DNA of 64,000 nt from Salinisphaera sp. T31B1. GTDB lineage: Bacteria > Pseudomonadota > Gammaproteobacteria > Nevskiales > Salinisphaeraceae. The stretch lies in the NCBI RefSeq assembly GCF_040361275.1, contig NZ_APNH01000001.1, positions 62,001 to 126,000 on the forward strand. The letters are read 5' to 3'. Of the stretch, positions 26,043-47,684 are shown piece by piece (the first letter of the stretch is position 1; every line of letters begins with the position of its first letter). A model generated the notes under the pieces. It did no database searches and was not told where the DNA came from. It saw nothing but the letters and a program-made list of their open reading frames with translations. A program made the translations under genes and the position numbers.

Positions 26043-26098
26043 AACTATCTCCCGGAGTCGGTAGACAGCCAAGCTAGGCCGAACGACGATTACTTAAA

Positions 26099-26114
26099 AT
26101 CGAATTATATCGAT
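26099..26114. promoter_or_regulatory. Inverted repeat between yeiH-like and lysR genes
   Basis: ATCGA (26099-26103) and TCGAT (26110-26114) are perfect inverted arms around ATTATA. The site sits in an AT-rich patch of the 103-bp divergent intergenic region, a typical place and form for a LysR-type regulator to bind and control both genes. Confidence 0.5.
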
Positions 26115-26145
26115 CCAACCGTTCGGTTTTGCTTATCATTGAGTA

Positions 26146-30209: not shown

Positions 30210-30216
30210 GGTGTCC

Positions 30217-31795: not shown

Positions 31796-31819
31796 GATCA
31801 TGCTCCTGTCTAAGAGGGC

Positions 31820-32542
31820 TCACGCCTTGTCGGCGGGCGCCAGGTAAGCGGCAATACGCGATTTGAGACCAGGCGCGGCCGCCGAACGCACGAGCCGGGC
31901 CAGATCCCGGTCCGGTTGCGCATCGTCCAGCGCGCCGTGCAGCAGCGCACGGGCGGGATCCGGCGAGCGAGCGAACTCGTCGTCTACCAGCGCCGACCAT
32001 GCGTCGACGGCGGCCGTCTCGGTGACGAAGCCGATCCGATGCGCTTCCTCGGCGTCGAAAGTACGCGTCGACGACTGGATCTCGCGCGCAGTATCCGCGC
32101 CCACGCAGGCGGCAAAGCGGCGCGTGCCCAGCACCAGCCCGAAGTTAAGCCCCGGCATGCGAAAACTCGCTTCATCGGTCGCGATACGACGTCGACAGGC
32201 ACCGAACAGGTCGACTCCGGCACCGAAATTGCGGCCATGGGCCAGGCCGATGGTCACCGCAGGTGACCAGGCCAGCTTCTGGAGCAGCGTCTCGATCCGA
32301 ATGAAGCGCAGCACGAGATCGCCTTCGCTGGCGTCCTGCCACCCCGAGAAATCGAAGCCGGCGCTGAAATTCTTTCCTCGTCCGGCGAGCACGATGACCT
32401 CGGCGGCTTCGGCATGTGCGGCATCTACCGCGTCGATCAATGCCTCGACCAATTCGGCCGACAAAGCGTTGCGTTTGTCAGGCCGGTTCAGCGTCAGCGT
32501 GACGCCACCGGCGGTGCGATCGACGGTCAACAGCTCGCTCAT
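31820..32542 (-). CDS. Enoyl-CoA hydratase/isomerase family protein
   Basis: From the ATG at 32542, overlapping the upstream stop as ATGA, the protein has 240 residues. Crotonase-fold motifs: LNRPDKRNALSAELVEAL, the oxyanion-hole region AGRGKNFSAGFDFSGW and GLAHGRNFGAGVDLFGACRR. The two catalytic glutamates of standard hydratases are not in place: GGGxEL is GAGVDL and the later PE is PG (FRMPGLNFGLVLG). It may be an isomerase, a C-C hydrolase or another crotonase-fold enzyme. Confidence 0.87.
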   Translation of the reverse strand: MSELLTVDRTAGGVTLTLNRPDKRNALSAELVEALIDAVDAAHAEAAEVIVLAGRGKNFSAGFDFSGWQDASEGDLVLRFIRIETLLQKLAWSPAVTIGLAHGRNFGAGVDLFGACRRRIATDEASFRMPGLNFGLVLGTRRFAACVGADTAREIQSSTRTFDAEEAHRIGFVTETAAVDAWSALVDDEFARSPDPARALLHGALDDAQPDRDLARLVRSAAAPGLKSRIAAYLAPADKA

Positions 32543-33693
32543 GCCGTGGCCCGCCCATTCATCTCGGCCAGTACCTCGGCAGTATGCTCGCCGAGCTCGG
32601 GGGGCCGACGGCGCACGCCCTGGCCGACCCCTGAAAAACGTACCGGCGAGCCGAACGTCTTGGTCGCCACACCGTTGGGAAGCTCCAGCGGCTGGACCCA
32701 GCCCATGTGCTCGACCTGAGGATCGGCCAGCACCTCGGAATACCGGTTGATCGGCGCACACGGCACGCCGGCTTCTCGGAAGCGCGCCAGCCAGGTTTCG
32801 CTATCGGCCTCGGCAAAGATCGCCTCCAGCATCTCGCGCAGTTCGGTCTGGTGGGCTGCCCGGTCGGTGGGTGATGCGAACCTTGGATCGGTCAGCCACG
32901 CCGGTCGGTCGACCACCGAGCACACTTTCTTCCAGAGGGCATCGTTGCCTGCCGCCATACCGAAATAGCCGTCGCGCGCGGCGAACGCCTGGTAGGGCGC
33001 ATTTCGCGGATGCGCGCTGCCGAGCTTTTCCGGGTCGCGGCCGCTGCCGAAATACTCGGAGGTCTGCAGTGCGGCGATCCCGAGCGTCGCGCCCAGCATG
33101 GGCACATCGATATGGGCGCCCTGGCCGGTCTTCTCGGCCGAGCGAAGCGCCGAGGCGACCGAATAGGCCGCATACAGCCCCGCCGAGAAATCGGCCAGCG
33201 GCACGCCACATTTGACCGGTGCCCCGCCGGGTTCGCCGGTGATGCTCATGATGCCGCTCATCGCCTGCACCGTCAGATCGAATCCACCTTCCTGGGCGCG
33301 CGGTCCGGTCTGCCCGTACGCCGATATCGAAGCATAGATCAACGCCGGATTCACCCGGCTGAGTTCCTCGTAGCCCAGACCCAGCCGGGCCATCACGCCC
33401 GGGCGGTTGTTCTCGATGACGACCTGCGCGCTCTCACACAGCCGCCGGGCATTGTCACGATCCGTCTCGTTCTTGAGATCCAGTGCCACCGATCGCTTGT
33501 TGCGGTTCAGCGAAGCAAAGTTCTCGCTATAGCCATCGGTGATCGGCGGCCAGGCACGGAGGCTGTCACCCCCGTTGGGGTTCTCGACCTTGATCACGTC
33601 GGCCCCCATGTCGGCCAGCAACATGCCGCAGAACGGGCCGGCAGCCACGTTGCAGAACTCGATGACGGTGACGCCGCCTAACGGGCTGTCCAT
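32539..33693 (-). CDS. Class III CoA-transferase (CaiB/BaiF family)
   Basis: Protein of 384 residues with the family pattern: GVTVIEFCNVAAGPFCGMLL, ADVIKVENPNGGDSLRAW, ALDLKNETDRDNARRL and, in the middle, GVPLADFSAGLYAAYS, which carries the catalytic aspartate of the family. Such enzymes move CoA between an acyl-CoA and a free acid, for example succinyl-CoA to a dicarboxylic or carnitine-like acid. Here it could activate the imported acid without ATP. It lies 62 bp downstream of the TAXI binding-protein gene. Confidence 0.92.
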   Translation of the reverse strand: MDSPLGGVTVIEFCNVAAGPFCGMLLADMGADVIKVENPNGGDSLRAWPPITDGYSENFASLNRNKRSVALDLKNETDRDNARRLCESAQVVIENNRPGVMARLGLGYEELSRVNPALIYASISAYGQTGPRAQEGGFDLTVQAMSGIMSITGEPGGAPVKCGVPLADFSAGLYAAYSVASALRSAEKTGQGAHIDVPMLGATLGIAALQTSEYFGSGRDPEKLGSAHPRNAPYQAFAARDGYFGMAAGNDALWKKVCSVVDRPAWLTDPRFASPTDRAAHQTELREMLEAIFAEADSETWLARFREAGVPCAPINRYSEVLADPQVEHMGWVQPLELPNGVATKTFGSPVRFSGVGQGVRRRPPELGEHTAEVLAEMNGRATA

Positions 33694-33755
33694 GGTGTCT
33701 CCTTGATTTAAGCAATAGAAATACGGGCCGTGCCGGGCGGCGAACCTGGTTCGAC

Positions 33756-34781
33756 CTATGCCTCGGGCGGCTGCAAGGCGTCCGGAATCTCGACGCCCTG
33801 TTCGCGGAAGTAGCGCGCCGCGCCCGGATGCAGCGGCATGGGCAGACCGGCCAGCGCATGCTCCAGACTCATGACCTTGGTCGCCGAATGCACGCTGTTG
33901 AGAAACGGCAGGTTCTCGTAGATCGCCTGGGTGATCTTATAGACATCGTCCTCGGAAACATCGGCATTGACCACAAGGAAGTTGGGCTGGGCGACGGTGT
34001 GGATGGCCTTGTCCTGATTCGGATACGTGCCGGCCGGAATGTCGTAGCGTGTCCACAGCGAATACTTGCCGTTGGCCTTGGCCATTTCCTCGTCGGTGAA
34101 GTCCAGCACCTGGACATCGTCGCCCATCGCAGCGTAAGCCCGGGTCACCGCCGAGACCGGCACCCCGCCGGGCGTGTTCATGCCGCCGATCACGCCGTTC
34201 TGCAATGCGTTGGCCGAGCCTTCGTAGCCCTGATGCATTAGGTTGAAGTCGGCGTTCACGTCATAGCCGAGATTGGTCAACAGCGTGGTGCCGGAGCCTT
34301 CCGTTCCCGAGTTGCGACGGCCGATGGAAAACCGTCCCCCGACCAGGTTATCCATATCGGCCATCGTACCGGTATCGACGAATTTCTTGCGGACCACGAA
34401 ATGCTCGACGTTGGACCACAGCATCGTGATAGAGCGCAGCTGTTGCTGTTTGCCGGCATCGGCCAGCCGGCCCTCGCCTTCCCACGCCCAGGCGCCGAAC
34501 ACGCCCTGAAGAATCGCGAACTGAGCCTGATCCTCTCTCAGCAGCTTGATGTTCTCTCCCGAGCCGGCTGTGCTGATCGCCGATAGCGAGATACCGGTCT
34601 TGGGTTCGAGTTTGACCTTGGTCAGGGAGGCCAGCCCGACGCCGACCGGGTAGAACGTGCCGCCGGGTGTCGCCGTAGCCAGGATATAGGACTGGCCGGC
34701 CGCCCCAGCCGTCTGGGCCGCCCCGAGCACGAGCATCGCTCCCACCGCGGCGCAGGCCACTAATCGCTTGATTGATTTCAT
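33756..34781 (-). CDS. TAXI-family TRAP transporter solute-binding protein
   Basis: Protein of 341 residues. A signal peptide (residues about 1-27, ending in AGA) is followed by the TAXI pattern YILATATPGGTFYPVGVGLA, GENIKLLREDQAQFAILQGV and the C-terminal PLHPGAARYFREQGVEIP. It captures an organic acid in the periplasm for the divergent TRAP permease. It is the first gene of operon A, with a strong GAGGGAG ribosome site. TAXI proteins bind acids such as glutamate or oxoglutarate in the few known cases. Confidence 0.93.
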   Translation of the reverse strand: MKSIKRLVACAAVGAMLVLGAAQTAGAAGQSYILATATPGGTFYPVGVGLASLTKVKLEPKTGISLSAISTAGSGENIKLLREDQAQFAILQGVFGAWAWEGEGRLADAGKQQQLRSITMLWSNVEHFVVRKKFVDTGTMADMDNLVGGRFSIGRRNSGTEGSGTTLLTNLGYDVNADFNLMHQGYEGSANALQNGVIGGMNTPGGVPVSAVTRAYAAMGDDVQVLDFTDEEMAKANGKYSLWTRYDIPAGTYPNQDKAIHTVAQPNFLVVNADVSEDDVYKITQAIYENLPFLNSVHSATKVMSLEHALAGLPMPLHPGAARYFREQGVEIPDALQPPEA

Positions 34782-34836
34782 TGTTTTCTCCCTCGCATGA
34801 TCGGCCGTCAGCCGTTGTTCTGAATATTGATAGTGC

Positions 34837-34853
34837 GTTCCATATTCAAGCTA
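34837..34853. promoter_or_regulatory. IclR-type operator candidate A (operon A side)
   Basis: GTTCCATATTCAAGCTA, 56-72 bp upstream of the TAXI gene start. The left arm is a perfect match to the consensus GTTCCATATTATGGAAC; the right arm is degenerate, so this is the weakest of four sites. Confidence 0.45.
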
Positions 34854-35002
34854 GCCGTGTTCCGCCCGGCTTGTCAACGACGTGAGCCCCAGCTGCCGGA
34901 TAGCGGCACCAGCCCCACGCCCTCCGACGTGCGCGGGTTTTCAGGCACGGGGTCATGCAATTGACAAACGCGCTCACGCATAGATACATTTTGTGGAACG
35001 AC

Positions 35003-35019
35003 GATCCATATATTAGAAC
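35003..35019. promoter_or_regulatory. IclR-type operator candidate B (TRAP permease side)
   Basis: GATCCATATATTAGAAC, 136-152 bp upstream of the TRAP permease start. Both arms match the shared palindrome with few changes. An extra half-site, TGGAAC, lies just upstream at 34994-34999, an arrangement seen at some IclR-family sites. Confidence 0.55.
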
Positions 35020-35154
35020 AGACACAAAGACGACTGACCACCCGCCGTAGGCACTTCACCAGCCGCGGCGGCCCGTGTCTGTCGAACCGTACGATCGATT
35101 GGCCGAACGCCCGCTAGAGACGCGTCGCCCATATCGCGAACCTGGAGGAGATCC

Positions 35155-37299
35155 ATGGCTGACCCGAACCCGACGCCCGTGGCGACGCCGCCTGCCGGCA
35201 GCCAGCCCGATCGCAACGGCTACGTCATGACCGCGATCGCCGCGGCAATCGCCGCCTTGCATCTGTATCTGGTGACGTTCACGCCCATCTCGGATCTGCG
35301 CATCGGCGCACTGCACTTTGCCTCGTTCGGTTTCCTGTGCGCCTTGCATTATTCGCTGGCGCCCCGCCACGCCCGTCATCCGCTGATCGTGGCGCTGGAC
35401 TACGCGGCCGCGCTACTGGCCGTGGCCTGTGTGGTCTATCTGTTCGTCATGGAAAACGCGCTGTATGCGCGCAGCGTCAACTTCATTGCCAGCGATTGGC
35501 TGTTCTCGATCGCCTGCGTGGTGCTTGCCCTGGAGTTCGTACGCCGCTCGGTCGGCTGGGCGATTCCCCTGATGGTGCTGGCCGCGCTCGGCTACGCCGG
35601 CGGACTGGGTCAGTACCTGCCGGGCGTATTCCATTTCCCCGGGCTGTCGGCCGAGGTGATCCTCTACCGCAGTTATTTCGGCCCCGACGGACTGTTCGGC
35701 TCGCTGGCGCGCATTTCCTATGCCTACGTATTCCTGTTCGTGATCTTCGGCGCCTTTCTGGCCAGTTCCGGGGCGAGCGACTTCATCGTCAACCTGGCAC
35801 GGTCGGCGACCGGTCGTCTGCGCGGCGGACCCGGCTTCGTGGCGGTGGCCGCCTCGGGCATGATGGGATCGATCTCGGGATCGGCAGCCGCCAACGTCGC
35901 CTCGACCGGCACCGTGACCATTCCGATGATGAAACGGGCGGGTTTTCGACCGGAATTTGCCGGCGGGCTGGAAACCGCGGCCTCGACGGGCGGCCAGATG
36001 ATGCCGCCGATCATGGGCGCCGGCGCGTTCGTGATGGCCAACTACACCCAGATCCCCTATGCCACGATCATCGGCGTCGCCCTGCTGCCGGCGCTGTTGT
36101 ATCTGCTCTCGGTGGCCTGCTGGATTCGTATCAACCTTCAGAAATACGATATCGCCGACATCGAGGACGATACGCCACGTTTTCTGCAGGTTCTGGCCCA
36201 GGGCTGGATGCATCTGCTGCCGCTGATCGTGCTGGTGGGCATGCTCGCCGCGGACTACACGCCGGAGATGGCCGCGGTCGCCGGCATCGCCTCGATCGTG
36301 GTCGTGTCCTGGTTCACCGCCCAGCCGATCGGCCCGGTGCGCGCCATCCGCACCCTGGCGGAAGCCTCACGCACGATGATCCCGACTGCCGTACTGCTGA
36401 TCAGCATCGGCATCGTCGTGAACATGCTCGGCACGACAGGCATCGGCAACACATTCGGCCTGATGATCGACAGCTGGTCGCATGGCAACGTGCTGATCGC
36501 CATCGGCCTCATCGGCCTGGTCTCGCTGGTGCTGGGCATGGGGCTGCCGGTGACCGCGTCGTATATCATCCTGGCCACCATGGCCGCACCGGCGCTGTCC
36601 GAGATGATCGTGCACGGCCACCTGGTGTCGGCCATCGCTGGCGGAGACGTCCCGCAACAGCTGGTCACCATGCTGCAGGCCCTGGGCGTGGCCGGCGCCG
36701 ACGGGCTGGGCCAGCCGATGGGACATGCCGCCGCCGCGACGCTGGTCGATCAGGTGCCGGCCCCGATGATGGGCCAGGTTTCGGATCAGGTGCTCTCGGC
36801 CGGCGTGGTAACGACTGCGCTGCTGTCGGCTCACATGATCATCTTCTGGTTGTCCCAGGACAGCAACGTCACACCGCCGGTGTGCATCGCCGCGTTTGCC
36901 GCAGCCGCCATCGCCGGCAGCCGCCCGTTCCGAACCGGGTTCGAGGCCTGGAAGATGGCCAAGGGACTTTATATCATCCCGCTGCTGTTCGCCTTCACGC
37001 CGTTCTTATCCGGCGATGTGGGCACCGCCCTGGCCATATTCGGCTGGGCGGCGGTCGGGCTGTATGCGCTGGCCGGCGGCATGTCCGGCTATCTGGAAAG
37101 CCGGCTCAATATCGTCGAGCGAGTCCTCGTTCTGGCCTGTGGCATCGGGCTGCTCTGGCCCATGCCCTGGTACGGGCACGCAGTGGCGCTTGTACTGTTC
37201 GCGATCGTTTTCTGGCGCTCGCGCCGCCGTGTGCAACCTGGCGCACGCGCCGCCGACCAGCCGCAGGCCGGTGCGCCGGCAGGCAGGCGGCCAGTGTGA
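35155..37299 (+). CDS. TRAP transporter fused permease (4TM/12TM)
   Basis: Protein of 714 residues with about 16-18 transmembrane segments. A small-subunit-like region (DctQ type, residues about 20-160) is fused to the large DctM-type permease, with signatures VAASGMMGSISGSAAANVAS and GFRPEFAGGLETAASTGGQM and, later, GMGLPVTASYIILATMAAP. Fusions of this kind work with TAXI binding proteins, as encoded divergently here. Transport is Na+-coupled and imports organic acids. GAGGAG precedes the start. Confidence 0.94.
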   Translation: MADPNPTPVATPPAGSQPDRNGYVMTAIAAAIAALHLYLVTFTPISDLRIGALHFASFGFLCALHYSLAPRHARHPLIVALDYAAALLAVACVVYLFVMENALYARSVNFIASDWLFSIACVVLALEFVRRSVGWAIPLMVLAALGYAGGLGQYLPGVFHFPGLSAEVILYRSYFGPDGLFGSLARISYAYVFLFVIFGAFLASSGASDFIVNLARSATGRLRGGPGFVAVAASGMMGSISGSAAANVASTGTVTIPMMKRAGFRPEFAGGLETAASTGGQMMPPIMGAGAFVMANYTQIPYATIIGVALLPALLYLLSVACWIRINLQKYDIADIEDDTPRFLQVLAQGWMHLLPLIVLVGMLAADYTPEMAAVAGIASIVVVSWFTAQPIGPVRAIRTLAEASRTMIPTAVLLISIGIVVNMLGTTGIGNTFGLMIDSWSHGNVLIAIGLIGLVSLVLGMGLPVTASYIILATMAAPALSEMIVHGHLVSAIAGGDVPQQLVTMLQALGVAGADGLGQPMGHAAAATLVDQVPAPMMGQVSDQVLSAGVVTTALLSAHMIIFWLSQDSNVTPPVCIAAFAAAAIAGSRPFRTGFEAWKMAKGLYIIPLLFAFTPFLSGDVGTALAIFGWAAVGLYALAGGMSGYLESRLNIVERVLVLACGIGLLWPMPWYGHAVALVLFAIVFWRSRRRVQPGARAADQPQAGAPAGRRPV

Positions 37300-37433
37300 G
37301 TCCGGTCAGGCCGAACCCATCGCCACCACCGTTGCTGGGTCGGCGGACAACCTGAAATCCGGCTGCCGCGCTGCCGGTCGCCCGACATCGCCAAGTTCAC
37401 GGACCGATCGTTCCACCGCTGCGCCTTCTGTTT

Positions 37434-38198
37434 ATGGATAAAACACTCATAAAGGGCATGAAGGTCCTGGAGACGCTCGCCGACTTCGATGAGCCTGCAT
37501 CGGTGAGCGAACTGGCCGAAGCCTGCGGGCTGACGCGCAGCAACGCCCATCGCGTACTGGCCACCTTCCAGACCTTGGGCTATGTCGCCCAGGATTCGCG
37601 AAGTCGGCGCTACCACATGACCCTTCGCGTATGGTCTCTGGGGTCCAAGGCCGTGGAACGGCTGGATTTCAAGCAGGAAGCCCGCCCGTTCCTGGATCGA
37701 TTGAACGAAATGACCGGCGAAACCACGCATCTGTCGATCCTGGACGATATCGACGTGATTTATATCGACAAGCTTGAAGCCCGCCATGCGGTACGCACCT
37801 TCACCCGTATCGGCGGGCGCGCGCCGGCCATCTGTGTGGCCACCGGAAAGGCCGCGCTGGCATTCAGCCGCCCCGAGCGCATCGACCGGGCGATCGCAGG
37901 GATCGAGAAATTCACCGACAGCACCGTCACCGATCCCAGCGCACTGCGCGCCGAGCTCGACGCGGTCCGCGAACAGACGTTCGCCGTGAACCGCGGCGAA
38001 TGGCGCGGCGGCGCCTATGGCCTGGCCGTGCCCATTTTTTCGGCCCTGGACGAGGTCGTTGCCGCGATCGGCATCTCGGCGCCCCGTGACCGGATGGCCG
38101 AAGACCGTATCGAAGCGCTCACCGATGAGATCAAGACGATCGGCCGCCAGCTGTCGGTGCGGCTCGGCGCCAGTGCGCGCCACGGCGGCCCAACCTGA
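37434..38198 (+). CDS. IclR-family transcriptional regulator
   Basis: Protein of 254 residues. The N-terminal winged helix (IKGMKVLETLADFDEPASVS, then LAEACGLTRSNAHRVLATFQ) is followed by the IclR effector domain (residues about 75-245, with GETTHLSILDDIDVIYIDKL and GEWRGGAYGLAVPIFSALDE). It follows the TRAP permease by 134 bp and could be transcribed with it. Four copies of one palindrome in the promoters of operons A and B make it the likely controller of the whole island. The inducer is probably the imported acid or an early pathway product. Confidence 0.92.
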   Translation: MDKTLIKGMKVLETLADFDEPASVSELAEACGLTRSNAHRVLATFQTLGYVAQDSRSRRYHMTLRVWSLGSKAVERLDFKQEARPFLDRLNEMTGETTHLSILDDIDVIYIDKLEARHAVRTFTRIGGRAPAICVATGKAALAFSRPERIDRAIAGIEKFTDSTVTDPSALRAELDAVREQTFAVNRGEWRGGAYGLAVPIFSALDEVVAAIGISAPRDRMAEDRIEALTDEIKTIGRQLSVRLGASARHGGPT

Positions 38199-38249
38199 AC
38201 CGCCGGACGGCAACCCACCTTCGTTGCGATCGCGCGCTCGAGCGCACGG

Positions 38250-38270
38250 CCGACCCGGTTGGGGTCGGCT
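38250..38270. terminator. Hairpin between convergent iclR and GMC genes
   Basis: GCCGACCC (38250-38257) and GGGTCGGC (38263-38270) form a perfect 8-bp stem with a 5-nt loop between the two convergent stop codons (38198 and 38308). It could end transcription from both sides, although no T tract is visible. Confidence 0.5.
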
Positions 38271-38307
38271 CGGCCCTATTCATCGCGAACGTTTGGCCGC
38301 GGCCCGC

Positions 38308-39921
38308 TCAGGCGGCGACCGCTGTCTGCCGGTGCAATATGTAGTCGGCGGCCTTTTCGGCAATCATGGCCGTGGGCGCATTCGTGTTGCCGGAAATCAA
38401 CGTCGGCATTATCGAACAATCGACCACTCGCAGGCGCTCGACGCCATGAACCCTGAGCTGCGGGTCCACGACGGCCTGTGCATCGGTGCCCATCTTGCAG
38501 GTCCCCGACGGATGATAGATGGTCGCGCCCTTTTCACGCGCATGTTCGAGCAGGGCCTCGTCATCGCGATGCGCCGTGCCGGGTAGCACCTCGCAGTCGA
38601 TATAGGCACGTAGCGCCTCGGTCGCGGCCAGCGCGCGGGCGAGCTTAATGCCACCCACCGCGCAATCCCGATCGGTCGCCGTGCTCAGATAGTTCGCCTG
38701 AATTTTCGGCTGCATGCGGGGATCCCGGCTTTGTATCGACAGCTCGCCGCGCGATTCGGGTCGCAGCTGGCAGACCGAGAACGTCGCCCCCGACCATTTG
38801 TGTGGCCGGTAGCGTACGGTTTCGGCGGTCACCTTGGAAAAATGGAACTGCACGTCCGCACGATCCGACGACGGCAACACCTTGGCGAACAGGCCGGCGG
38901 TCGCGGCCGGCATCGATAACGGTCCGGATTTGAACAGCGCGTACTTCATGCCCAGTCCCAGCTTGCGCCAGAGGCTGTTGAGATCATCGTTGAGCGTGAT
39001 CTTCTTCTTGATCCGGTAGGTCACCGGGATCTGGAGATGATCCTGCAGATTCTGTCCGACCCCTTCGAGCGCAGATACCCCGGGAATAGCGTGTTCGCGT
39101 ATCAGCGCCGAGGGCCCGATTCCGGACAGCTGCAACAGCTGCGGGCTCTGCAGCGCGCCGGCAGCCAGAATCACTTCCGCCTCGGCGCGTATCTGTTGCG
39201 TCTGCCCGTCGTGTTGAATCTCCACGCCGACGGCAATCTGGCCTTCGAAGATCACGCGTGTGACGAAAGCCTCGGTCTTGACGGTCAGATTCTCCCGCGC
39301 CCGGGCTGGCTTGAGATAGGCCACCGCCGCGCTGCACCGGCGCGCCTGGCGGATGAAGAATTGGTAGTAGCCGGCCCCCAGCTGGCTGGCGCCGTTGAAA
39401 TCGGTGTTCTTCGGCAGGCCGAGTTCTTGGGCGCCGTCGAATATCGCCTCCATGAGTTCGTCCTTGACCGGCATGTCGGAAGCCCACAGCAGGCCGTCGC
39501 CCCCATGCAACGCCGACTCGCCGCGGGTGTTCTTCTCCAGCTTGCGAAAATACGGCAATACCCGGTCCCAGGACCAGTCGGCGTTGCCCTGATCAGCCCA
39601 GTGATCGTAGTCCTCGGCCTGACCGCGGATCACGACCATGCCGTTGATCGAACTGGAGCCGCCGATACAGACACCGCGGGGCCAGACCATCTTGCGACCG
39701 TTCATCTGCGGCCCGGCGTCCGTCTCGAACTGGCGTGCGATGCGTTCGTCGTAGATCGTCTTGCCGTAGCCCAGCGGTACGTGGATCCAGGGGTTGCGAT
39801 CCTCCGGCCCGGCTTCGAGCAGCAGCACCTTATTGCGGCCACAGGCGCTTAAGCGATTGGCCAGCACGCAGCCGGCGGTACCCGCGCCGACGATGACATA
39901 GTCGTAGGTCTGATTATCCAT
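38308..39921 (-). CDS. GMC-family FAD-dependent alcohol dehydrogenase/oxidase
   Basis: Protein of 537 residues. The dinucleotide-binding motif VGAGTAGCVLANRLS is at the N-terminus. GMC signature 1 is WPRGVCIGGSSSINGMVV, and the second is the AAGALQSPQLLQLSGIGPSA segment. The C-terminal catalytic histidine region is YHPSGTCKMGTDAQA. It oxidises a primary or secondary alcohol, as in choline or polyethylene-glycol dehydrogenases. It is the last gene of operon B, 84 bp after the Baeyer-Villiger-type gene. The substrate is unknown. Confidence 0.93.
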   Translation of the reverse strand: MDNQTYDYVIVGAGTAGCVLANRLSACGRNKVLLLEAGPEDRNPWIHVPLGYGKTIYDERIARQFETDAGPQMNGRKMVWPRGVCIGGSSSINGMVVIRGQAEDYDHWADQGNADWSWDRVLPYFRKLEKNTRGESALHGGDGLLWASDMPVKDELMEAIFDGAQELGLPKNTDFNGASQLGAGYYQFFIRQARRCSAAVAYLKPARARENLTVKTEAFVTRVIFEGQIAVGVEIQHDGQTQQIRAEAEVILAAGALQSPQLLQLSGIGPSALIREHAIPGVSALEGVGQNLQDHLQIPVTYRIKKKITLNDDLNSLWRKLGLGMKYALFKSGPLSMPAATAGLFAKVLPSSDRADVQFHFSKVTAETVRYRPHKWSGATFSVCQLRPESRGELSIQSRDPRMQPKIQANYLSTATDRDCAVGGIKLARALAATEALRAYIDCEVLPGTAHRDDEALLEHAREKGATIYHPSGTCKMGTDAQAVVDPQLRVHGVERLRVVDCSIMPTLISGNTNAPTAMIAEKAADYILHRQTAVAA

Positions 39922-40005
39922 GAGATTTCCGATTGATAAACACCGAACACCGAACGGGCGGCTCGTCGCGGATAGCGCGCCGCGGCCGCTGCCATCGGCG
40001 CTGAA

Positions 40006-41613
40006 CTAGCGAAATACGAAACCTTCCATATCGTTCGTCGTGCGCTGCTTGAGAATGCGGGCATAGACGGCCGAACCGCCGATATAAGGCATGAATACCT
40101 GCGGTTTGCCTTCGACGTTGGCTCCCAGATACCAGGAGTTGGCCTCGCGCATGAGCGTACGCCGCGACACGGCGTCGACTTCGGCCATCCAGTCTTCCTG
40201 GGCGTCGCGGGTGGGTTCGACGGTCTGGTCCTGACGACGCTCCAGGTCGGCGACGGTCTCGGTGATCCAGTCCACGTGCTCCTCGATCGAGGGGACCATG
40301 TTCGAGAACACCGACGGGCTGCCCGGACCGGTCACCAGGAACAGGTTGGGGAAGTCGGCGACCATCAGGCCCAGATAGGTTTTCGGCCCGGCCGCCCATT
40401 CCTGCGACAGCGGCAGATCGTCGCGGCCGCGGATGTCGATCCGGCTGAGCGCGCCGGTCATGGCGTCGAACCCGGTGGCCAGCACCAGCGTATCGAGTTC
40501 GAACTCGCGACCGCTGTTCAGCCGCACGCCGGTCTCGGTCACGCCGGCCACTGGATCGGCCTTGATATCCACGACGTCCACATGGTCGTGGTTGAATATC
40601 TCGTAGTACCCGGTATCCACACAGATGCGTTTGGCGCCGATCGGATAGTCACTGGGCGCCAGAACGGCCGCGGTATCCGGGTCGTCCACGATCTCGCCGA
40701 TCTTCTTGCGCACGAAACGCGCCACCGCTTCGTTGACTTCGCGGTCTCGGGTCACATCGTTGAACGCATAGAGAAAGCCGATACCGCCGATCTGCCATTC
40801 CGCCTCGAGCAGCGTGTCGAGCTGCTGTTCGGTCAGCTCGTGTCCGGAGCGCTGGCCCGGGTTGTTGTAGAGCGTGTAGTTGCGGGTCTGGCGCACCTGC
40901 TCGCGGCGATTCGCGTAATCGCTCTTCCATGCCTTGATATACCCCTGGCTCATGGGGCGATTGTTGGCGGGCACCGAATAGTTCGGCGTGCGCTGAAACA
41001 CCGTCAGCTGCCGACAATCGGCGGCGATCGTCGTCGCCGTCTGGATCCCCGACGAACCGGTGCCGATCAGACCGACGCGGTCGGCGCTGAAATCCGGGCG
41101 TTCGGACGGCCATTCGGAGGTCTTGAGCAGCCGCCCCTGGAAGTGTTCCAGCCCTTCAATATCCGGCACCTTCGGCACCGACAGGCAGCCGGTGGCCATC
41201 ACGCAGTAGGTTGCCTCGACCTGACGGCCATCGTCGAACGCCGCGCGCCACAACGCAGTCTCGGCGTCGTAGCGCAGCGAGCTGAGGCATGTATTGAAGT
41301 CGATATGATCCCGTAGCGCCAGACGGTCCACCACGAAATTGATGTAGGCGAGAATCTCCGGCTGTGCCGCATACAGTTCGGACCAGTCCCATTCCTGCTG
41401 GATCTCGTCCGAGAACGAATAGGAGTACTGCATGCTCTCGGTATCGCAACGCGCACCCGGGTAGCGATTCCAATACCAGGTGCCACCCACGTCGGCGCCC
41501 GCCTCCACCGCACGCGCATTCAGGCCCAGCGTACGCAAACGGTGCAGGGCATAGACGCCGGCAAAACCGGCACCCACCACCAGCGCGTCATGGCGCTCTA
41601 TCGGGTCGGACAT
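40006..41613 (-). CDS. Baeyer-Villiger-type flavin monooxygenase
   Basis: Protein of 535 residues with two Rossmann motifs (VVGAGFAGVYALHRL for FAD, near residue 12, and LIGTGSSGIQTATT for NADPH). GGTWYWNRYPGARCDTES is typical of cyclohexanone-monooxygenase-like enzymes. The family fingerprint FxGxxxHxxxWP is present as FQGRLLKTSEWP at residues 158-169, with lysine (164) in the place of the histidine. It would insert oxygen next to a carbonyl, turning a ketone into an ester or lactone. It lies 14 bp downstream of the hydrolase gene in operon B. Confidence 0.9.
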   Translation of the reverse strand: MSDPIERHDALVVGAGFAGVYALHRLRTLGLNARAVEAGADVGGTWYWNRYPGARCDTESMQYSYSFSDEIQQEWDWSELYAAQPEILAYINFVVDRLALRDHIDFNTCLSSLRYDAETALWRAAFDDGRQVEATYCVMATGCLSVPKVPDIEGLEHFQGRLLKTSEWPSERPDFSADRVGLIGTGSSGIQTATTIAADCRQLTVFQRTPNYSVPANNRPMSQGYIKAWKSDYANRREQVRQTRNYTLYNNPGQRSGHELTEQQLDTLLEAEWQIGGIGFLYAFNDVTRDREVNEAVARFVRKKIGEIVDDPDTAAVLAPSDYPIGAKRICVDTGYYEIFNHDHVDVVDIKADPVAGVTETGVRLNSGREFELDTLVLATGFDAMTGALSRIDIRGRDDLPLSQEWAAGPKTYLGLMVADFPNLFLVTGPGSPSVFSNMVPSIEEHVDWITETVADLERRQDQTVEPTRDAQEDWMAEVDAVSRRTLMREANSWYLGANVEGKPQVFMPYIGGSAVYARILKQRTTNDMEGFVFR

Positions 41614-41627
41614 GAATGGATCTCCTT

Positions 41628-42560
41628 TCAGTCTGTGATTCGGGATAGAAAGCCGGTCATCGCAGCCAACGCATGGCCGGATGCCGCAAAATCGGGCCCC
41701 ACGGTCAGGAAACCGTGAAGCTCGCCGGGATAGTGTTCATGGGTGCATGCACCCGCCCGGCGTGCCTGGCAGCGCGCAGCGTGCTCGACAGCCTCGTCGC
41801 GCAGCGGGTCATAGCCAGCACTGATGATCAGCGTCGGCGCGGCGGCGGCGTCCGGGCCCGGGGTCAGCGGCGAGGCCCGTGCCCCCGCCCGGTCGGCCGC
41901 CGCGGGAAAATACAGAGAGCGGAACCACGCCATCGTGCGGCCGGTGACCGCCATGCCCGGTACGTCGATACTGTCCGACGGGTAGACCGTGCACTGGTCG
42001 AGCGAGGGATAGATCAGAATCCGGCCCGACAGGCCGATACCGGCCTCGGCGGCGTGCTCGGCCACGGCCGCGGCGAGCGTCCCGCCGGCGCTGTCCCCGG
42101 CCAGCACCACGCGCTGGCTGTCCAGGGCAAGCGAACCCGCATTCGCCCGCAGCCAGCCCAGCGCCGCGATACAGTCTTCATAGGCCGCGGGAAACGGGTG
42201 CTCGGGTGCCAGCCGATAATCGACCGACGCCACCACCCAGCCGCTGCGCGCGGCCAGGCGCGCACACAGCAACCGGTGGGCTTCCAGCTCACCGAACACC
42301 CAGCCGCCCCCGTGCATATAGATCACCACTGGGCGCGGCACGATCGAGTCCGATTCGGGTTCGAACACCGTCAGCGCAGCGTGGCACGTGACCGCCGTAC
42401 GCCAGCATCGCCCGGTACGGCCTTCGAGCAGCGGATGCCGGGCCGGGGTCTGGGCGGCGGCGATCAGCGCCCGGGCCTCATCGACACGGTAGTGCTCGTA
42501 GGCCAGCCGGCCCTCGGCCAGGCGCTGTTCGAGCAGATCGCGACTGTCGCGGCTGAGCAT
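41628..42560 (-). CDS. Alpha/beta hydrolase, hormone-sensitive-lipase family esterase
   Basis: From the ATG at 42560 the protein has 310 residues. HSL-family features are HGGGWVFGE (oxyanion hole), the nucleophile elbow GDSAGG, the acid residue in GYDPLRDEAVEHA and the histidine in GELHGFL. A natural role beside the Baeyer-Villiger enzyme is to open the ester or lactone it forms. The longer open frame upstream runs into the neighbouring dehydrogenase gene and lacks family sequence. Confidence 0.92.
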   Translation of the reverse strand: MLSRDSRDLLEQRLAEGRLAYEHYRVDEARALIAAAQTPARHPLLEGRTGRCWRTAVTCHAALTVFEPESDSIVPRPVVIYMHGGGWVFGELEAHRLLCARLAARSGWVVASVDYRLAPEHPFPAAYEDCIAALGWLRANAGSLALDSQRVVLAGDSAGGTLAAAVAEHAAEAGIGLSGRILIYPSLDQCTVYPSDSIDVPGMAVTGRTMAWFRSLYFPAAADRAGARASPLTPGPDAAAAPTLIISAGYDPLRDEAVEHAARCQARRAGACTHEHYPGELHGFLTVGPDFAASGHALAAMTGFLSRITD

Positions 42561-42567
42561 GACTCTG

Positions 42568-43302
42568 CTAGACCGACAGGCCGCCGTCGACCGCGATTTC
42601 CGCGCCGTTGACATAACGGCTGGCCGGCGACAGCAGAAACAGCACGACGTCGACCACCTCGTCCTCGGAGCCACGGCGCTGCATCGGAATCTGTGCGGTA
42701 CGCCGAGCCAGCCGGTCCGGGTCGATGGCCTCGATCATCTTCGTGTCGATCAGCCCGGGGTGCACCGAATTCACGCGAATGCCGTGCTCGGCCAGTTCGG
42801 CCGCGGCCATCTTGGTCATGCCTCGCACTGCCCACTTGGTGCTCGTATACGCCGCCCCGCCGGTGCCGCGCAGCCCCGAGATCGACGAAATGTTGACCAC
42901 GGACAGATCCGCCCCGTCGGCCAGCTCGGCAGCGAACTTCAAGCCGAGAAACGTGCCCAGCTGGTTGACCGCCACATGACGCTGGAACAGCGCCACATCG
43001 GTATCGAGAATCGGCCGCGGATCGAAGATGCCGGCGTTGTTGACCAACCCGTCCAGACGACCGGTACGGGCGACCACCGTCTTGAGTGCCTGCCAGCTGT
43101 CCGGGTCGGCCACATCCAGCACGACGAATTCACATTGCGCACCGAGGCGCTCCGCCAGAGCCCGGCCTTCGTCCTCACGGACATCACCGACCACCACCCG
43201 GCAACCGCGAGCCACGAGCTTGGCCGCCAGTGCCGCGCCCTGCCCGCGCGCCCCGCCGGTCACGACAACGGTGCGATCGGGCCAGTTATTTTCATCAACC
43301 AT
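42568..43302 (-). CDS. Short-chain dehydrogenase/reductase (second of two)
   Basis: From the ATG at 43302 (AAGGAG upstream) the protein has 244 residues: cofactor motif TGGARGQGAA, NNAG, catalytic SSIS and YTSTK, and the C-terminal NGAEIAVDGGLSV common in cyclohexanol- and hydroxysteroid-dehydrogenase-like members. Acidic Asp in VVVGDVRED after strand 2 suggests NAD+. It probably interconverts an alcohol and a ketone in the pathway. Confidence 0.92.
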   Translation of the reverse strand: MVDENNWPDRTVVVTGGARGQGAALAAKLVARGCRVVVGDVREDEGRALAERLGAQCEFVVLDVADPDSWQALKTVVARTGRLDGLVNNAGIFDPRPILDTDVALFQRHVAVNQLGTFLGLKFAAELADGADLSVVNISSISGLRGTGGAAYTSTKWAVRGMTKMAAAELAEHGIRVNSVHPGLIDTKMIEAIDPDRLARRTAQIPMQRRGSEDEVVDVVLFLLSPASRYVNGAEIAVDGGLSV

Positions 43303-44161
43303 GCATGTCTCCTTGTGCCCAGCCAGCAGCCAGCACGCGCACGTCGTCCTGTCGGCCATCGCCTCGCTCGGCGCTGGTCAGCGCTTGCTCGATCTGGCGA
43401 TGACGGCTACGCACCACCGCCGCATATTCGGGATGGCTCATCAGATAGAATTGCTCGTTCTCGATGCCGCGGACGGCCATCGCGGCGAGCGCGGCCGGAT
43501 CCATACCGTTGTCGATCGCCGCATGGTTGGTCCTGGGCACCGGCTCGCCGCATTCGTTACCGCGCGGCGCCTGGGTCGCCAGGCCGGTCTTCACGAATCC
43601 CGGACACAGCACCGATACCGACACCTCGGAATCGAGCGTGTCGAAATACAGCGCCTCGCTGAGCCCGAGCGCACCGAATTTCGAGGCGATGTACGCACCG
43701 CTGCCCGAACCGGTCACCACCCCGCAGATCGAGACGGTATTCAGAATGTGGCCCGGGCCATGCCCTCGATAGAGATCGGACAGGAACAGCCGGCTGCCGT
43801 ACAGCACACCCGACAGGTTGGTCGAGATCAGCCGATCCCAGTCGGCGAACGCGATCTCGCCGACGCCCGACTTGCCACAGGTCGTACCGGCGTTGTTGCA
43901 GATGATGTCGACCCAGCCGATGGTCGAACGGATATGCCCACAGGCAGTCGTCCAGCTATCCAGGCAAGAGACATCCAGCGCGATCGCCTCCGCGCGCCCT
44001 GAACGCGCGCGGATCGCACCTGCCGTCTGCTCGCCCCGGGCGGCGGTCAGGTCTGCACAGATCACCCGCGCGCCGCGGTCGGCCAGGGCCAGGGCCAGGG
44101 CGCGACCGATACCACTGCCCGCGCCGGTCACCAGCGCCGTCGTATCGTTTTGAATATGCAT
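43295..44161 (-). CDS. Short-chain dehydrogenase/reductase (first of two)
   Basis: From the ATG at 44161 the protein has 288 residues: TGAGSGIGRALALALADRGA, NNAGT and YIASKFGALGLSEAL, with C-terminal charged helices. The Asp in VICADLTAA suggests NAD+. The tail (LMSHPEYAAVVRSRHRQIEQ) is longer than in its neighbour and resembles SDRs often found next to Baeyer-Villiger enzymes. It starts 5 bp after the AtoE-like gene and overlaps the next SDR by 8 nt. Confidence 0.91.
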   Translation of the reverse strand: MHIQNDTTALVTGAGSGIGRALALALADRGARVICADLTAARGEQTAGAIRARSGRAEAIALDVSCLDSWTTACGHIRSTIGWVDIICNNAGTTCGKSGVGEIAFADWDRLISTNLSGVLYGSRLFLSDLYRGHGPGHILNTVSICGVVTGSGSGAYIASKFGALGLSEALYFDTLDSEVSVSVLCPGFVKTGLATQAPRGNECGEPVPRTNHAAIDNGMDPAALAAMAVRGIENEQFYLMSHPEYAAVVRSRHRQIEQALTSAERGDGRQDDVRVLAAGWAQGDMHG

Positions 44162-44166
44162 TCGAT

Positions 44167-45594
44167 TCAGTAGAACAACGGAGCGATAAACAGCAGACTG
44201 ACGGTGAAGATCGCCGTGGAGACGATCATCATCAGCGCGGTATAGCCCAGGATGTCTCGTGCCTTGAGCGCGGTGACGCCGAGCAGGGGCAGCATCCACA
44301 TTGGCTGCACGCCGTTGGTCAGCTCGTCACCGTAGGAAAACGCCAGCACGGTGGTCGGAATATCAGCCCCCACCGAACGCGCCGCTTCGATGAGCATCGG
44401 CCCCTGGACCGCCCACTGGCCGCCGTTCGACGGCACCATCAGGTTGACGAACGCTGCGCTCAGCGTGGTCATCAGCGGGAAGGTATGCACCGTCGAAATA
44501 TTGACCAGGCCCTGGGCGAACAGGGTGATCAGCCCCGAACCGGCCATCATGCCCATGATCCCGGCATAGAAGGGAAACTGGAGCACGATCTGGCCGCAGG
44601 TCTTGATACCGCGGTCGATGGCGCGGACATAGGCGATCGGCCGGCCGTAGGCGATCAGCCCGAGAGTCAGGAACGTGAAGTTCACGATATTTAGGTTCAG
44701 ATCGAACCCGTTGGTGATAAAGAACTTGATGATGTAGCCCAGCGCCAGCGCCACGATACATAGCGTCAGCAGGCGGGAGTTCTCGACCCGCTCGGCGAAT
44801 GTGTGTCGAGCCGGCGGTACTTCCGTGCTGACCGCGGCCGCGCCGACGCTCCGGGCCCCGCCGTCCACCGGTGCATCGGCCACGTCGACACGCCCGCTGT
44901 CGCTCGCCGCCCGCATGACGCCGATTTCCTTATCACTGACCGCCCGGATGCCGTCGCCGGTCGGGTGCATGCGTCGACAGACCCACGGCAGCAGTATCAG
45001 CAGGGCGGCCGAAACGATCAGGTTCAACGGCGAAAGCACGGTCTGGGTCAGCGGTATCAGTCCGATCTGATCGGAGAGGAAATGATCGGGAGTATTGACC
45101 AGCAACGACGTGGTCGACGACAGCCCGCCCTGCGATGTGGTGGCACCGGCAAACCCGGCGGCGACTGCCAGCGGATAGTGCACGCGAATGCCCCGGAGCT
45201 TGGCCTGAAGACAGATTTCCCGGGCGGATACGGCACCGATGATCAGGCCCAGCCCCCAGTTGATGAACGACACGCCGACCGAAAGCAGGCAGACGAGCAT
45301 GACCGCCGTACCGGCCGAATTGGGCAGCTTGGCCAGCCGGATGATCACCCGTTGTACCGGCGGCGACTCGGCCAGCACATAGCCGAAAAGCAGAATGGCC
45401 ACCATCTGCATGGAGAACTTGAGCAGTCCCCAGAAGCCGTCGTACCAGTAATCGACCATCTCCAGCGGGCCCGCGCCGGCGAGCACGATTCCGAAAACGA
45501 ATACCAGCACCGTCAGCATGATGGCGAAGGCAAACGGCGTCGGGATGAACTGCCGGGAAAAGGCTGAAAAAAAGGCGGCCAGTCGTTTCAACAT
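44167..45594 (-). CDS. Short-chain fatty acid transporter, AtoE family (operon B)
   Basis: From the ATG at 45594 (GAGGAGC upstream) the protein has 475 residues with about 12 membrane segments. AtoE-family sequences are visible: FINWGLGLIIGAVSAREICL, TTSQGGLSSTTSLLVNTP, LMVPSNGGQWAVQGPMLIEA and NGVQPMWMLPLLGVTALKAR. AtoE imports acetoacetate and butyrate-like acids in E. coli. A hydrophilic insert (about 225-275) lies in the middle. It heads operon B and is divergent from a paralogue. Confidence 0.9.
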   Translation of the reverse strand: MLKRLAAFFSAFSRQFIPTPFAFAIMLTVLVFVFGIVLAGAGPLEMVDYWYDGFWGLLKFSMQMVAILLFGYVLAESPPVQRVIIRLAKLPNSAGTAVMLVCLLSVGVSFINWGLGLIIGAVSAREICLQAKLRGIRVHYPLAVAAGFAGATTSQGGLSSTTSLLVNTPDHFLSDQIGLIPLTQTVLSPLNLIVSAALLILLPWVCRRMHPTGDGIRAVSDKEIGVMRAASDSGRVDVADAPVDGGARSVGAAAVSTEVPPARHTFAERVENSRLLTLCIVALALGYIIKFFITNGFDLNLNIVNFTFLTLGLIAYGRPIAYVRAIDRGIKTCGQIVLQFPFYAGIMGMMAGSGLITLFAQGLVNISTVHTFPLMTTLSAAFVNLMVPSNGGQWAVQGPMLIEAARSVGADIPTTVLAFSYGDELTNGVQPMWMLPLLGVTALKARDILGYTALMMIVSTAIFTVSLLFIAPLFY

Positions 45595-45652
45595 GGCTTG
45601 CTCCTCGTTCACACGGTCGATACTGGCCAACCATCAGCCAGCGCTTATAATT

Positions 45653-45669
45653 GTTCTATTATTTGGAAC
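45653..45669. promoter_or_regulatory. IclR-type operator candidate C (operon B side)
   Basis: GTTCTATTATTTGGAAC, 59-75 bp upstream of the AtoE-type gene of operon B. Both arms fit the shared palindrome with one change (GTTCT/GGAAC), one of the two best copies. Confidence 0.6.
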
Positions 45670-46072
45670 GCTATTTTGCTATTCAGATTATTGTCGCGTT
45701 CCGGTGATGTCAAGACATGGCCGACCTGGCGGCCCATGCCGCGATCCGCTACCCACCCAGGCGAGGCGGATTCTGATGGTCACGTGCCTGAGCCGAACAG
45801 CCGATCGCGCGTCAGGCGCCATCGGCACGCGCTGACCTCGACACAATCGATCGATTGAATAATTTTCGATATCAGATACTTGCAGTAGCCAGACGACTTA
45901 GCCGCCGCCCGCCTGCCGGGGCCGGCCCGTGACGATCCGGCTCTAGTTACGATCGTGCCGTCGCCATAGCTCGGGAAGTGGAGCGCATTGACACGCCCCG
46001 ATCGCCTGGCCCGGGCCTCGTCGGCCCCGGCTCTGGACTACGACTAAAGTCTAGATTAAATTATAGAACTGC

Positions 46073-46089
46073 GGTCCATATTATGGGAC
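46073..46089. promoter_or_regulatory. IclR-type operator candidate D (rightward AtoE side)
   Basis: GGTCCATATTATGGGAC, 111-127 bp upstream of the rightward AtoE gene; centre identical to the consensus, one change in each arm. A half-site AGAAC lies just upstream, similar to the extra half-site beside candidate B. Confidence 0.6.
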
Positions 46090-46199
46090 GCTCGACGCTG
46101 CCAAGTGTGGTTGCGCTCGTTCGGCGCCGGCCGAGCAAAACTCGAACCGTTATATCGGTCGGCATACAGGCATAGCCAGTTCCCTATAAGGAAAAACAT

Positions 46200-47684
46200 A
46201 TGGCGATCGATGAACGCGAACTCGGCCGCACGCGCGGTTACGACAGCAGCGACGACGCTCCGCCGGGCAGCCGCCTGGAGCGCATCGCTTTGGCAGTCAC
46301 GACCTGGACAGAGCGCTGGTTCCCCGATGCCTATGTGATCGCATTGCTGGCACTGGTGATCGTCTCCGGTGCCGCTCTGCTGATCGGCGCACGGCCGACC
46401 GATATCGTTTCGGCCGTCGGTGACAACTACTGGAACCTGACTCGTTTCACCTACCAGATGGCCATGGTGATCCTGACCGGCTTCGCACTTGCGGCCGCCC
46501 CGCCGATCCGTCGGATGATCGAAGCCCTGGCTGCCGTGCCTCGCAGCGGACCGGGCGCGATCGCGTTCATTGCTCTGATGAGCATGATCGCTGGGCTGCT
46601 GAACTGGGGCTTTGGCATGATGTTCAGCGCATTTCTGGTCATGGCGCTCGCTGCGCGCCCCAGCCTGAACATGGATCTGCGTGCGGCCGCAGCAGCGGGT
46701 CTGCTGGGTACCGGCAGCACGAACATGGTCGGGCTGTCCTCCACCGCTGCCCTACTGCATGCCACACCGGCCAGCGTGCCCCCAGAGCTGCTCGCGATCT
46801 CCGGCTATATTCCGCTGACCGAGACCGTCTTCCTCTGGCAGAACGCCGTGCTGATCGCTGCCATGGCCACGGTCGGCCTGTTCGTGGCCTATTGCACCGC
46901 CCCGCGCGGGGCAGCGGTACACACCGCCGAGAGCATGGGGATCAATGCCGCGGCCCTGTTCGCCGACAGCGATGCCGACGACCAGGCATCGGCTGAACGC
47001 CGACCGGGGGATTTTCTGTCAGACCACCCGGCGCTGGCCTTGATCACCGGCGCGGTCATGGCGTGCTGGATCTCCATGCAGATATGGGACAACGGGTTTG
47101 CGGCCACCATCTCCAATCTGAACAACTACATCTTCATCACGCTGACCCTCGCCATACTGCTGAACTTTCGTATACGCCGATTTCTCAAGGCAGTCGCCGA
47201 AGCCGTGCCCTCGATCGGGGCGGTACTGATCCAGTTTCCGATCTATGCGGCGGTCGCGGCCGTGCTGATGACCGCCGAGAATCCGGCCGGCCAGACCGTG
47301 GCCGATTATCTGGGCGACATGTTCGCCAGCCTGGCGAGCCCACAGCTGCTGCCGCCGGTGGTCGCGATCTATTCCTACGTCGTTGGCGTATTCATCCCCT
47401 CGGCCGGGGCGAAATGGGTGCTGGAGGCACCTTATATTCTTCAGGCCGGCAACGAGTTGCACAGCCATCTGGGCTGGCTGATCAATATCTATGGGGCGGC
47501 CGAGTCGGTCGCGAACCTGCTCAACCCGTTCTGGATGCTGCCGATCCTCGGTCTGCTGTCTCTTCAGGCGCGAAGCGTGGTGGGATTCACCTTCATCTAC
47601 TTCGTGTTTCTCGCACCGACCGTGCTGATTGTCGGCTGGCTACTCGGCTATACCCTGCCCTATCACCCGCCGGTCATGCCGTAA
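46200..47684 (+). CDS. Short-chain fatty acid transporter, AtoE family (paralogue)
   Basis: Protein of 494 residues with about 12 membrane segments. It is related to the divergent AtoE gene: LLNWGFGMMFSAFLVMALAA, TNMVGLSSTAALLHATP, IPSAGAKWVLEAPYILQAG and NPFWMLPILGLLSLQARSV match the corresponding parts of its neighbour, but overall they differ strongly, so this is an old split rather than a recent duplication. AAGGA precedes the start. It would import a short-chain or oxo acid. Confidence 0.88.
   Translation: MAIDERELGRTRGYDSSDDAPPGSRLERIALAVTTWTERWFPDAYVIALLALVIVSGAALLIGARPTDIVSAVGDNYWNLTRFTYQMAMVILTGFALAAAPPIRRMIEALAAVPRSGPGAIAFIALMSMIAGLLNWGFGMMFSAFLVMALAARPSLNMDLRAAAAAGLLGTGSTNMVGLSSTAALLHATPASVPPELLAISGYIPLTETVFLWQNAVLIAAMATVGLFVAYCTAPRGAAVHTAESMGINAAALFADSDADDQASAERRPGDFLSDHPALALITGAVMACWISMQIWDNGFAATISNLNNYIFITLTLAILLNFRIRRFLKAVAEAVPSIGAVLIQFPIYAAVAAVLMTAENPAGQTVADYLGDMFASLASPQLLPPVVAIYSYVVGVFIPSAGAKWVLEAPYILQAGNELHSHLGWLINIYGAAESVANLLNPFWMLPILGLLSLQARSVVGFTFIYFVFLAPTVLIVGWLLGYTLPYHPPVMP

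Follow-up and report, generated by a model that had tools for sequence, protein, structure and literature searches.

A 64,000-nucleotide stretch of the Salinisphaera sp. T31B1 genome (contig NZ_APNH01000001.1, positions 62,001 to 126,000), referred to below as the window and numbered by its own positions, contains an island of 15 genes (28704–47684, ~19 kb) that holds two catabolic gene sets. One is a six-gene operon on the minus strand, running from 45594 to 38308, which encodes an AtoE-type transporter (AtoE1), two short-chain dehydrogenases/reductases (SDR_A and SDR_B), an alpha/beta hydrolase, a flavoprotein resembling Baeyer–Villiger monooxygenases (BVMOs), and a GMC-family enzyme. The other, designated operon A, encodes a CaiB-type CoA-transferase, a crotonase (ECH), a pair of CoA-transferase-fold subunits (CoAT_a and CoAT_b), and an acyl-CoA synthetase (ACS). 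Because they share the island and a candidate operator, the two sets most likely constitute one IclR regulon and one pathway.

The genes of the BVMO operon are spaced, in operon order, by 5, -8 (an overlap), 7, 14, and 84 bp. Both this spacing and the Pfam/NCBIfam-type matches agree with an earlier note on this DNA, which had described six tightly spaced minus-strand genes (gaps of 5–84 bp or short overlaps) and named their families. The range given there, 38308–47684, holds for the six-gene unit but also covers a seventh gene, plus-strand AtoE2, which begins beyond a 605-bp divergent gap and therefore lies outside the unit. The six genes are probably co-transcribed; no minus-strand terminator-like sites were reported inside the run, by a scan that yielded no more sites than shuffled sequences did. 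The AtoE1 and AtoE2 proteins are about 26–27% identical over their length. Both SDRs are matched by PF00106/PF13561, and their translations contain the Ser-Tyr-Lys signature and, past the first beta-alpha-beta unit, an Asp that we take to favor NAD. The usual catalytic signatures are also seen in the hydrolase (HGGGW, GDSAGG, and a late His) and in the GMC enzyme (a late His and an Asn). The "GMC oxidase" of the earlier note does belong to this family but is better read as choline-dehydrogenase-like, its PRK02106 score being just below the cut-off of 605 bits (Table 1).

Table 1. Genes and candidate operators of the island in window coordinates. Invariance in the CoA-transferase-fold subunits refers to ten aligned pairs, i.e., the window's own and those of nine of the sixteen other operon A loci.
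Feature	Position	Strand	Evidence
ACS, acyl-CoA synthetase (AMP-forming)	28704-30209	-	PF00501, E 3.6e-78
CoAT_b, CoA-transferase-fold beta subunit	30217-30951	-	PF01144; Val53 invariant in 10/10 aligned
CoAT_a, CoA-transferase-fold alpha subunit	30944-31801	-	PF01144; Cys111 invariant in 10/10 aligned
ECH, enoyl-CoA hydratase family (crotonase)	31820-32542	-	family match
CaiB-type class III CoA-transferase (operon A)	32539-33693	-	PF02515, E 8.5e-129
TAXI solute-binding protein, first gene before operon A	33756-34781	-	TIGR02122, above cut-off
Candidate IclR operator, TAXI/TRAP divergent gap	35003-35019	.	1 mismatch
TRAP fused permease	35155-37299	+	TIGR02123, 584.7 bits, above cut-off
IclR-family regulator	37434-38198	+	PF01614 and PF09339; 39–46% identical to IclR near operon A in other genomes
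Choline-dehydrogenase-like GMC enzyme, last gene of the BVMO operon	38308-39921	-	PF00732 and PF05199; PRK02106, 593.9 bits
PAMO-type BVMO-like flavoprotein, Lys164 replacing the fingerprint His	40006-41613	-	PF07992 and PF00743 matches; 1w4x, E 1.1e-172
HSL-type alpha/beta hydrolase (esterase or lactonase)	41628-42560	-	PF07859, E 9.6e-60; HGGGW, GDSAGG, LHGF in translation
SDR_B, probable NAD-dependent alcohol dehydrogenase	42568-43302	-	PF13561; hydroxysteroid and alcohol dehydrogenases among the best solved matches
SDR_A, second SDR	43295-44161	-	PF00106
AtoE1, PF02667 transporter, first gene of the BVMO operon	44167-45594	-	PF02667, E 7.8e-125
Candidate IclR operator, 59 bp upstream of AtoE1	45653-45669	.	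GTTCTATTATTTGGAAC; 0 mismatches
Candidate IclR operator, 111 bp upstream of AtoE2	46073-46089	.	1 mismatch
AtoE2, divergent PF02667 transporter	46200-47684	+	PF02667, E 7.7e-68

The candidate operator is the palindrome GTYCYA-W5-TRGRAC (fixed pattern GTYCYAWWWWWTRGRAC), present twice in the AtoE1/AtoE2 gap. In its first form, the pattern had one more match in the window, against 0.42 expected, and this match lies in the divergent gap between the TAXI and TRAP genes. Throughout the 4.36-Mb genome, four places match with at most one mismatch, three of them in the two divergent gaps of the island; the reversed pattern matches nowhere in the genome. A promoter-like match (34961–34990) is situated just before the TAXI/TRAP site, from a scan that found fewer matches than shuffles do. 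Weaker half-sites are seen 20 bp from two of the candidate operators (34983–34999 and 46053–46069), and a similar 20-bp pair is present in locus L097 (7205 and 7225).

The palindrome is conserved together with operon A. Of the 16 other genomes or records that carry operon A, 15 have it ahead of this operon, of the IclR gene, or of the operon A transporter. When up to two mismatches are allowed, 26 of 27 sites in 17 loci from 16 genomes or records (319 kb) are followed by a matched gene within 450 bp, the lone exception being L100:35635, and local shuffles of these loci gave 0–3 sites in 20 trials. Twelve operon A loci were fetched after the pattern had been fixed. Sites were found in 11 of them, 16 in all, each localized no more than 450 bp upstream of a gene for IclR, CaiB, a symporter or, once, a YeiH-family protein; the locus without a site (L109) is cut by a contig end. 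As a control, 28 BVMO or plasmid neighborhoods (514 kb) contained no candidate operator at the same mismatch limit. The arrangement is as expected for an IclR regulon, with a conserved palindrome before both the regulator and the target genes, and we infer that IclR binds to it.

The block CaiB-ECH-CoAT_a-CoAT_b-ACS is complete in 15 of the 16 other genomes or records, including one with the CaiB match in two pieces (L108), and the 16th is cut by a contig end. It is rare: the carriers are the window's genome and G005 among 85 genomes of the order, 3 of 398 genomes in the phylum sample (the window's own included), and 8 of 249 and 6 of 328 genomes in two families, which had been chosen for holding a carrier. 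Operon A recurs, along with the same palindrome, in a congener, another family of the class, another class of the phylum, and a Caballeronia plasmid. Literature searches on CaiB/glutaconate-CoA-transferase/IclR clusters and on sulfosuccinate, judged from the listings, yielded no paper on it. At 13 of the 16 other loci a TcuC-type (citrate/tricarballylate) symporter is found near operon A (three were scored against NCBIfam, all above cut-off, the others being assigned by similarity), and in the window the TRAP/TAXI genes occupy its place.

The earlier note had guessed from the AtoE-type transporters at a small oxo acid or a short branched or cyclic compound. This guess is not supported: citrate/tricarballylate-type symporters prevail beside operon A elsewhere, and the same genome has three further AtoE-type genes outside the island (C2:559910, C1:584957, and C3:311636), for which reason the AtoE type was rejected as a substrate clue. 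The closest plasmid relative of AtoE1 (55% identity) is encoded on a Sulfitobacter dubius plasmid (L081:12001–13389) beside acetoacetate-CoA ligase and thiolase genes, a single case.

The CoA-transferase-fold pair of operon A belongs to the same fold family as IpdAB, AibAB, and glutaconate CoA-transferase. It differs from IpdAB in the alpha subunit, where Cys111 aligns with the Glu of IpdA (Ala in 6coj); the catalytic Glu being absent, steroid ring cleavage of the IpdAB type is not supported. It differs from AibAB in the beta subunit, where Val53 aligns with the Cys position of AibB (a position differing among solved AibB variants), so that the Cys of this decarboxylase is lacking. The catalytic beta-subunit Glu of class I CoA-transferases is Glu54 in GCT, according to the available part of PMC5380842.

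The borders of the island were delineated by comparison with congeners. At each of the eight sites read among the 13 congeners, its flanking genes, encoding a lipoprotein (at 27778) and a GTPase (at 47748), directly adjoin each other, with 9–464 bp between the two matches. In a 20-kb DNA comparison with the 13 congeners, about 21 of 166–417 first-look candidates were scored for each genome. The right flank was matched in every congener, the match starting between 47817 and 47988; for operon A the one match was in G005, at a different location (L090), and the BVMO operon region gave only short or paralogous matches. The empty site of one congener, G004, retains 74 codons of an acyl-CoA synthetase gene (L087:13346–13567), with 62% identity to the window's copy and 49–60% to ten others, a small margin. 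Operon A, or the left end of the island, may once have stood there, and the position of the fragment is a better argument for this than its identity. Left of the island (24975–27054), the window contains a YeiH-family gene and a YeiE-like LysR gene, both scoring under the NCBIfam cut-off; each of the eight congener sites read has a match to one or both of them. YeiH and YeiE constitute a sulfite-response pair in Salmonella.

Among solved structures, the flavoprotein of the BVMO operon is closest to phenylacetone monooxygenase (PAMO; 1w4x, 578.6 bits, a full-length match), followed by steroid monooxygenase (550.6 bits) and cyclohexanone monooxygenase (CHMO; 443.2 bits). Both GxGxxG Rossmann motifs are present (GAGFAG and GTGSSG), and the long type I BVMO motif, [A/G]GxWxxxx[F/Y]P[G/M]xxxD as defined in the available part of PMC4498894, is represented by GGTWYWNRYPGARCD. 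In contrast to PAMO, the protein deviates from the fingerprint FxGxxxHxxxW[P/D], having Lys164 in place of His (FQGRLLKTSEWP); by that motif it therefore falls outside the strict type I BVMOs despite its PAMO-like sequence. In 33 aligned relatives of 44–52% identity, which are not independent of one another, this position holds His in 17 cases, Tyr in 9, Ser, Phe, and Arg in 2 each, and Val in 1, i.e., the fingerprint His is absent from 16. The survey in PMC4498894, as far as its available text goes, required and confirmed both fingerprints in every sequence taken, and hence proteins without the fingerprint His would have been left out.

The best relatives of this BVMO are about 53% identical. 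That value is reached, among the matches listed, both in the 85 genomes of the order and in the 398 genomes of the phylum; on plasmids the best relative among the matches listed has 51% identity, with one further plasmid record, of length not given, in the 60–80% band. Only the window's own BVMO was within the strict limit in 369 genomes of the class. A scan of the named genome collection for close relatives revealed five loci with a relative at 44–48%, and the 13 congeners contain a single full-length one (45%, in G012).

A BVMO gene is accompanied by HSL-type hydrolase and SDR genes, on one strand and within 8 kb, in 4 of 24 neighborhoods. Two of these (L037 and L038) are from actinobacterial metagenome-assembled genomes, with a GMC match nearby on the opposite strand, and the others are from G050 (L076) and the congener G012 (L077). 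The G012 trio (L077:4987–10192), whose SDR, hydrolase, and BVMO are 37, 33, and 44% identical to those of the island, lacks the operator, with an IclR gene at a greater distance. A Marinibacterium anthonyi plasmid (L083) combines BVMO, hydrolase, and GMC (alkJ) genes with an IclR gene nearby. All five look-alikes differ from the island in having no AtoE-type gene and no operator, the identities being about 29–47%. A hydrolase gene is found within 3 kb of the BVMO gene in 5 of the 24 neighborhoods and directly adjoins it in two of three plasmid regions. Given such look-alikes, the chemistry is of a known kind; the novelty lies in the AtoE genes, the operator, and the connection with operon A. 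Conserved neighbors of the BVMO gene were of little help in interpreting the operon, as none of the 24 neighborhoods retains the complete set.

Cyclohexanol (chn) and similar alicyclic pathways likewise combine an SDR alcohol dehydrogenase, a BVMO, and a hydrolase in one cluster. In chn-type pathways these are accompanied by the hydroxyacid and oxoacid dehydrogenases ChnD and ChnE, whereas the island genes, to which the search was confined, include a GMC enzyme and no ChnD/ChnE-like pair; this role could fall to the GMC enzyme or to genes elsewhere. The island BVMO is also nearer to PAMO than to CHMO. The mymA operon is a further cluster combining a BVMO gene with lipase and SDR genes. Another comparable system is the 4-sulfoacetophenone locus of Comamonas testosteroni KF-1 (PMC3746432), likened here by its description rather than by sequence, where adjacent BVMO and carboxylester hydrolase genes on an acquired segment serve to degrade a sulfonated compound. 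That locus is framed by IS1071, and the available part of the paper mentions no GMC gene, SDR pair, or operon A.

Overall, these observations are best explained by a 19-kb accessory catabolic island in which one IclR regulator controls two divergent promoter pairs and a single pathway, an explanation that we consider probable. The pairs would be AtoE1-SDR_A-SDR_B-hydrolase-BVMO-GMC with AtoE2, and TAXI-CaiB-ECH-CoAT_a-CoAT_b-ACS with TRAP-IclR. The gene set fits the route from alcohol dehydrogenase through BVMO to hydrolase envisaged by the earlier note, with alcohol oxidation in addition, and the further suggestion made there, that the product enters operon A, gains support from the common island and common candidate operator. 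The predicted route leads from an alcohol via a ketone, an ester or lactone, and a hydroxy acid or alcohol to an acid and its acyl-CoA. An SDR would convert a secondary alcohol to the ketone, the BVMO would insert oxygen to give the ester or lactone, and the HSL-type hydrolase would open it. The freed hydroxyl may then be oxidized towards the acid by the GMC enzyme, perhaps with the second SDR. CaiB or the synthetase would form the CoA ester, which the crotonase and the divergent CoA-transferase-fold pair might cleave. The GMC enzyme is a possible hinge between the two sets. In G686, a relative with 58% identity is encoded beside operon A, after a 1.1-kb gap, on the strand of an operator-headed sulfatase gene and a TctC gene; the sulfatase would there free the hydroxyl that the BVMO and hydrolase free here.

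Several observations weigh against a single regulon and pathway. The two operons occur together at no other locus read, and the case for their joint use thus comes from a single genome; beyond these loci, the search of the operon A genomes for the BVMO operon comprised the strict BVMO search, which G686 and G576 did not pass, and congener searches including G005. The island genes include no aldehyde dehydrogenase, and the Lys at the BVMO fingerprint could mean altered BVMO chemistry. The operator pattern was first drawn by eye from the two palindromes in the AtoE1/AtoE2 gap and was widened after the first four other carriers; many carriers are related (L107 is nearly identical to Caballeronia sp. 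NK8 around the symporter), and the loci thus amount to fewer than 16 independent cases. As to the accessory nature of the island, its GC content (0.643) does not differ from that of the flanks (0.646 and 0.652), and no mobile-element genes were recognized among the scanned genes of the island and nearest flanks, in which no dedicated search for them was made. Because of the synthetase remnant in G004, loss elsewhere is as likely as recent gain.

A tentative alternative is that the BVMO operon degrades an acyclic ketone by subterminal oxidation, with the SDR, BVMO, and esterase yielding an alcohol and an acid and the GMC enzyme oxidizing the alcohol, and that operon A takes an unrelated acid and shares the switch only. 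The choline/alcohol-dehydrogenase type of the GMC enzyme favors this, as does the BVMO's closer similarity to phenylacetone and steroid monooxygenases than to CHMO. However, the available part of PMC4498894, which also states that few BVMOs have a known natural substrate, reports no further support for a clustering of BVMOs with like catalytic properties; nearness to PAMO is therefore a weak guide, and the common operator and island favor one pathway. We consider it unlikely that the flavoprotein mainly oxygenates S or N atoms, or that the His-to-Lys change has cost it normal BVMO activity. Lys164 would be in line with such a loss, but the other BVMO motifs are intact, the fingerprint His is missing from nearly one-half of the aligned relatives as well, and the gene is clustered with that of a hydrolase. 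An improbable explanation is that a variable site happened to receive two unrelated gene sets. In its favor, none of the 16 other operon A loci read includes the BVMO operon, and neither the whole set nor an AtoE-type gene is found in any of the 24 BVMO neighborhoods; on the other hand, the same rare palindrome heads both parts and is absent from BVMO neighborhoods elsewhere.

Within the preferred explanation, i.e., one regulon and one pathway, a more specific proposal appears doubtful at present: operon A would be an undescribed sulfite-releasing route for a polyanionic acid (e.g., a sulfo-dicarboxylate), with a new CoA-transferase-fold active site, and a ketone or alcohol bearing a sulfonate or sulfate group would be converted to this acid by the BVMO operon, controlled by the same IclR regulator. 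Tricarballylate-type symporters, YeiH, TauD, and a sulfatase are scattered hints that allow for a polyanionic, perhaps sulfonated, acid. YeiH-family genes are present in three of six genomes of one genus from another class of the phylum (L114, L115, and L116), below the NCBIfam but above the Pfam cut-off; they follow the symporter gene in L115 and L116, and one in L114 is preceded by a candidate operator. YeiH gives Salmonella sulfite resistance, according to the available part of PMC12880088. Sulfoacetate-type genes beside operon A in L112 (9383–14347), encoding SauS (above cut-off), a succinate-CoA-ligase-like pair, and an MFS protein, have no candidate operator. TauD-family genes occur at three operon A loci (NK8, its near twin G918, and G686), and the sulfatase gene of G686 lies behind a candidate operator. 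With the queries used, none of these YeiH-, SauS-, TauD-, or sulfatase-type hints was found at 9 of the 16 operon A loci, which argues against this proposal.

In the island, a BVMO is accompanied by a complete candidate pathway, a regulatory gene, and candidate operators mapped at three sites, and hence the inducer and the substrate can be searched for by a simple reporter screen. Operon A, in addition, carries a divergent CoA-transferase-fold enzyme. As both gene sets are located on one 19-kb piece, apparently under one switch, they may be tested together as one unknown food pathway.

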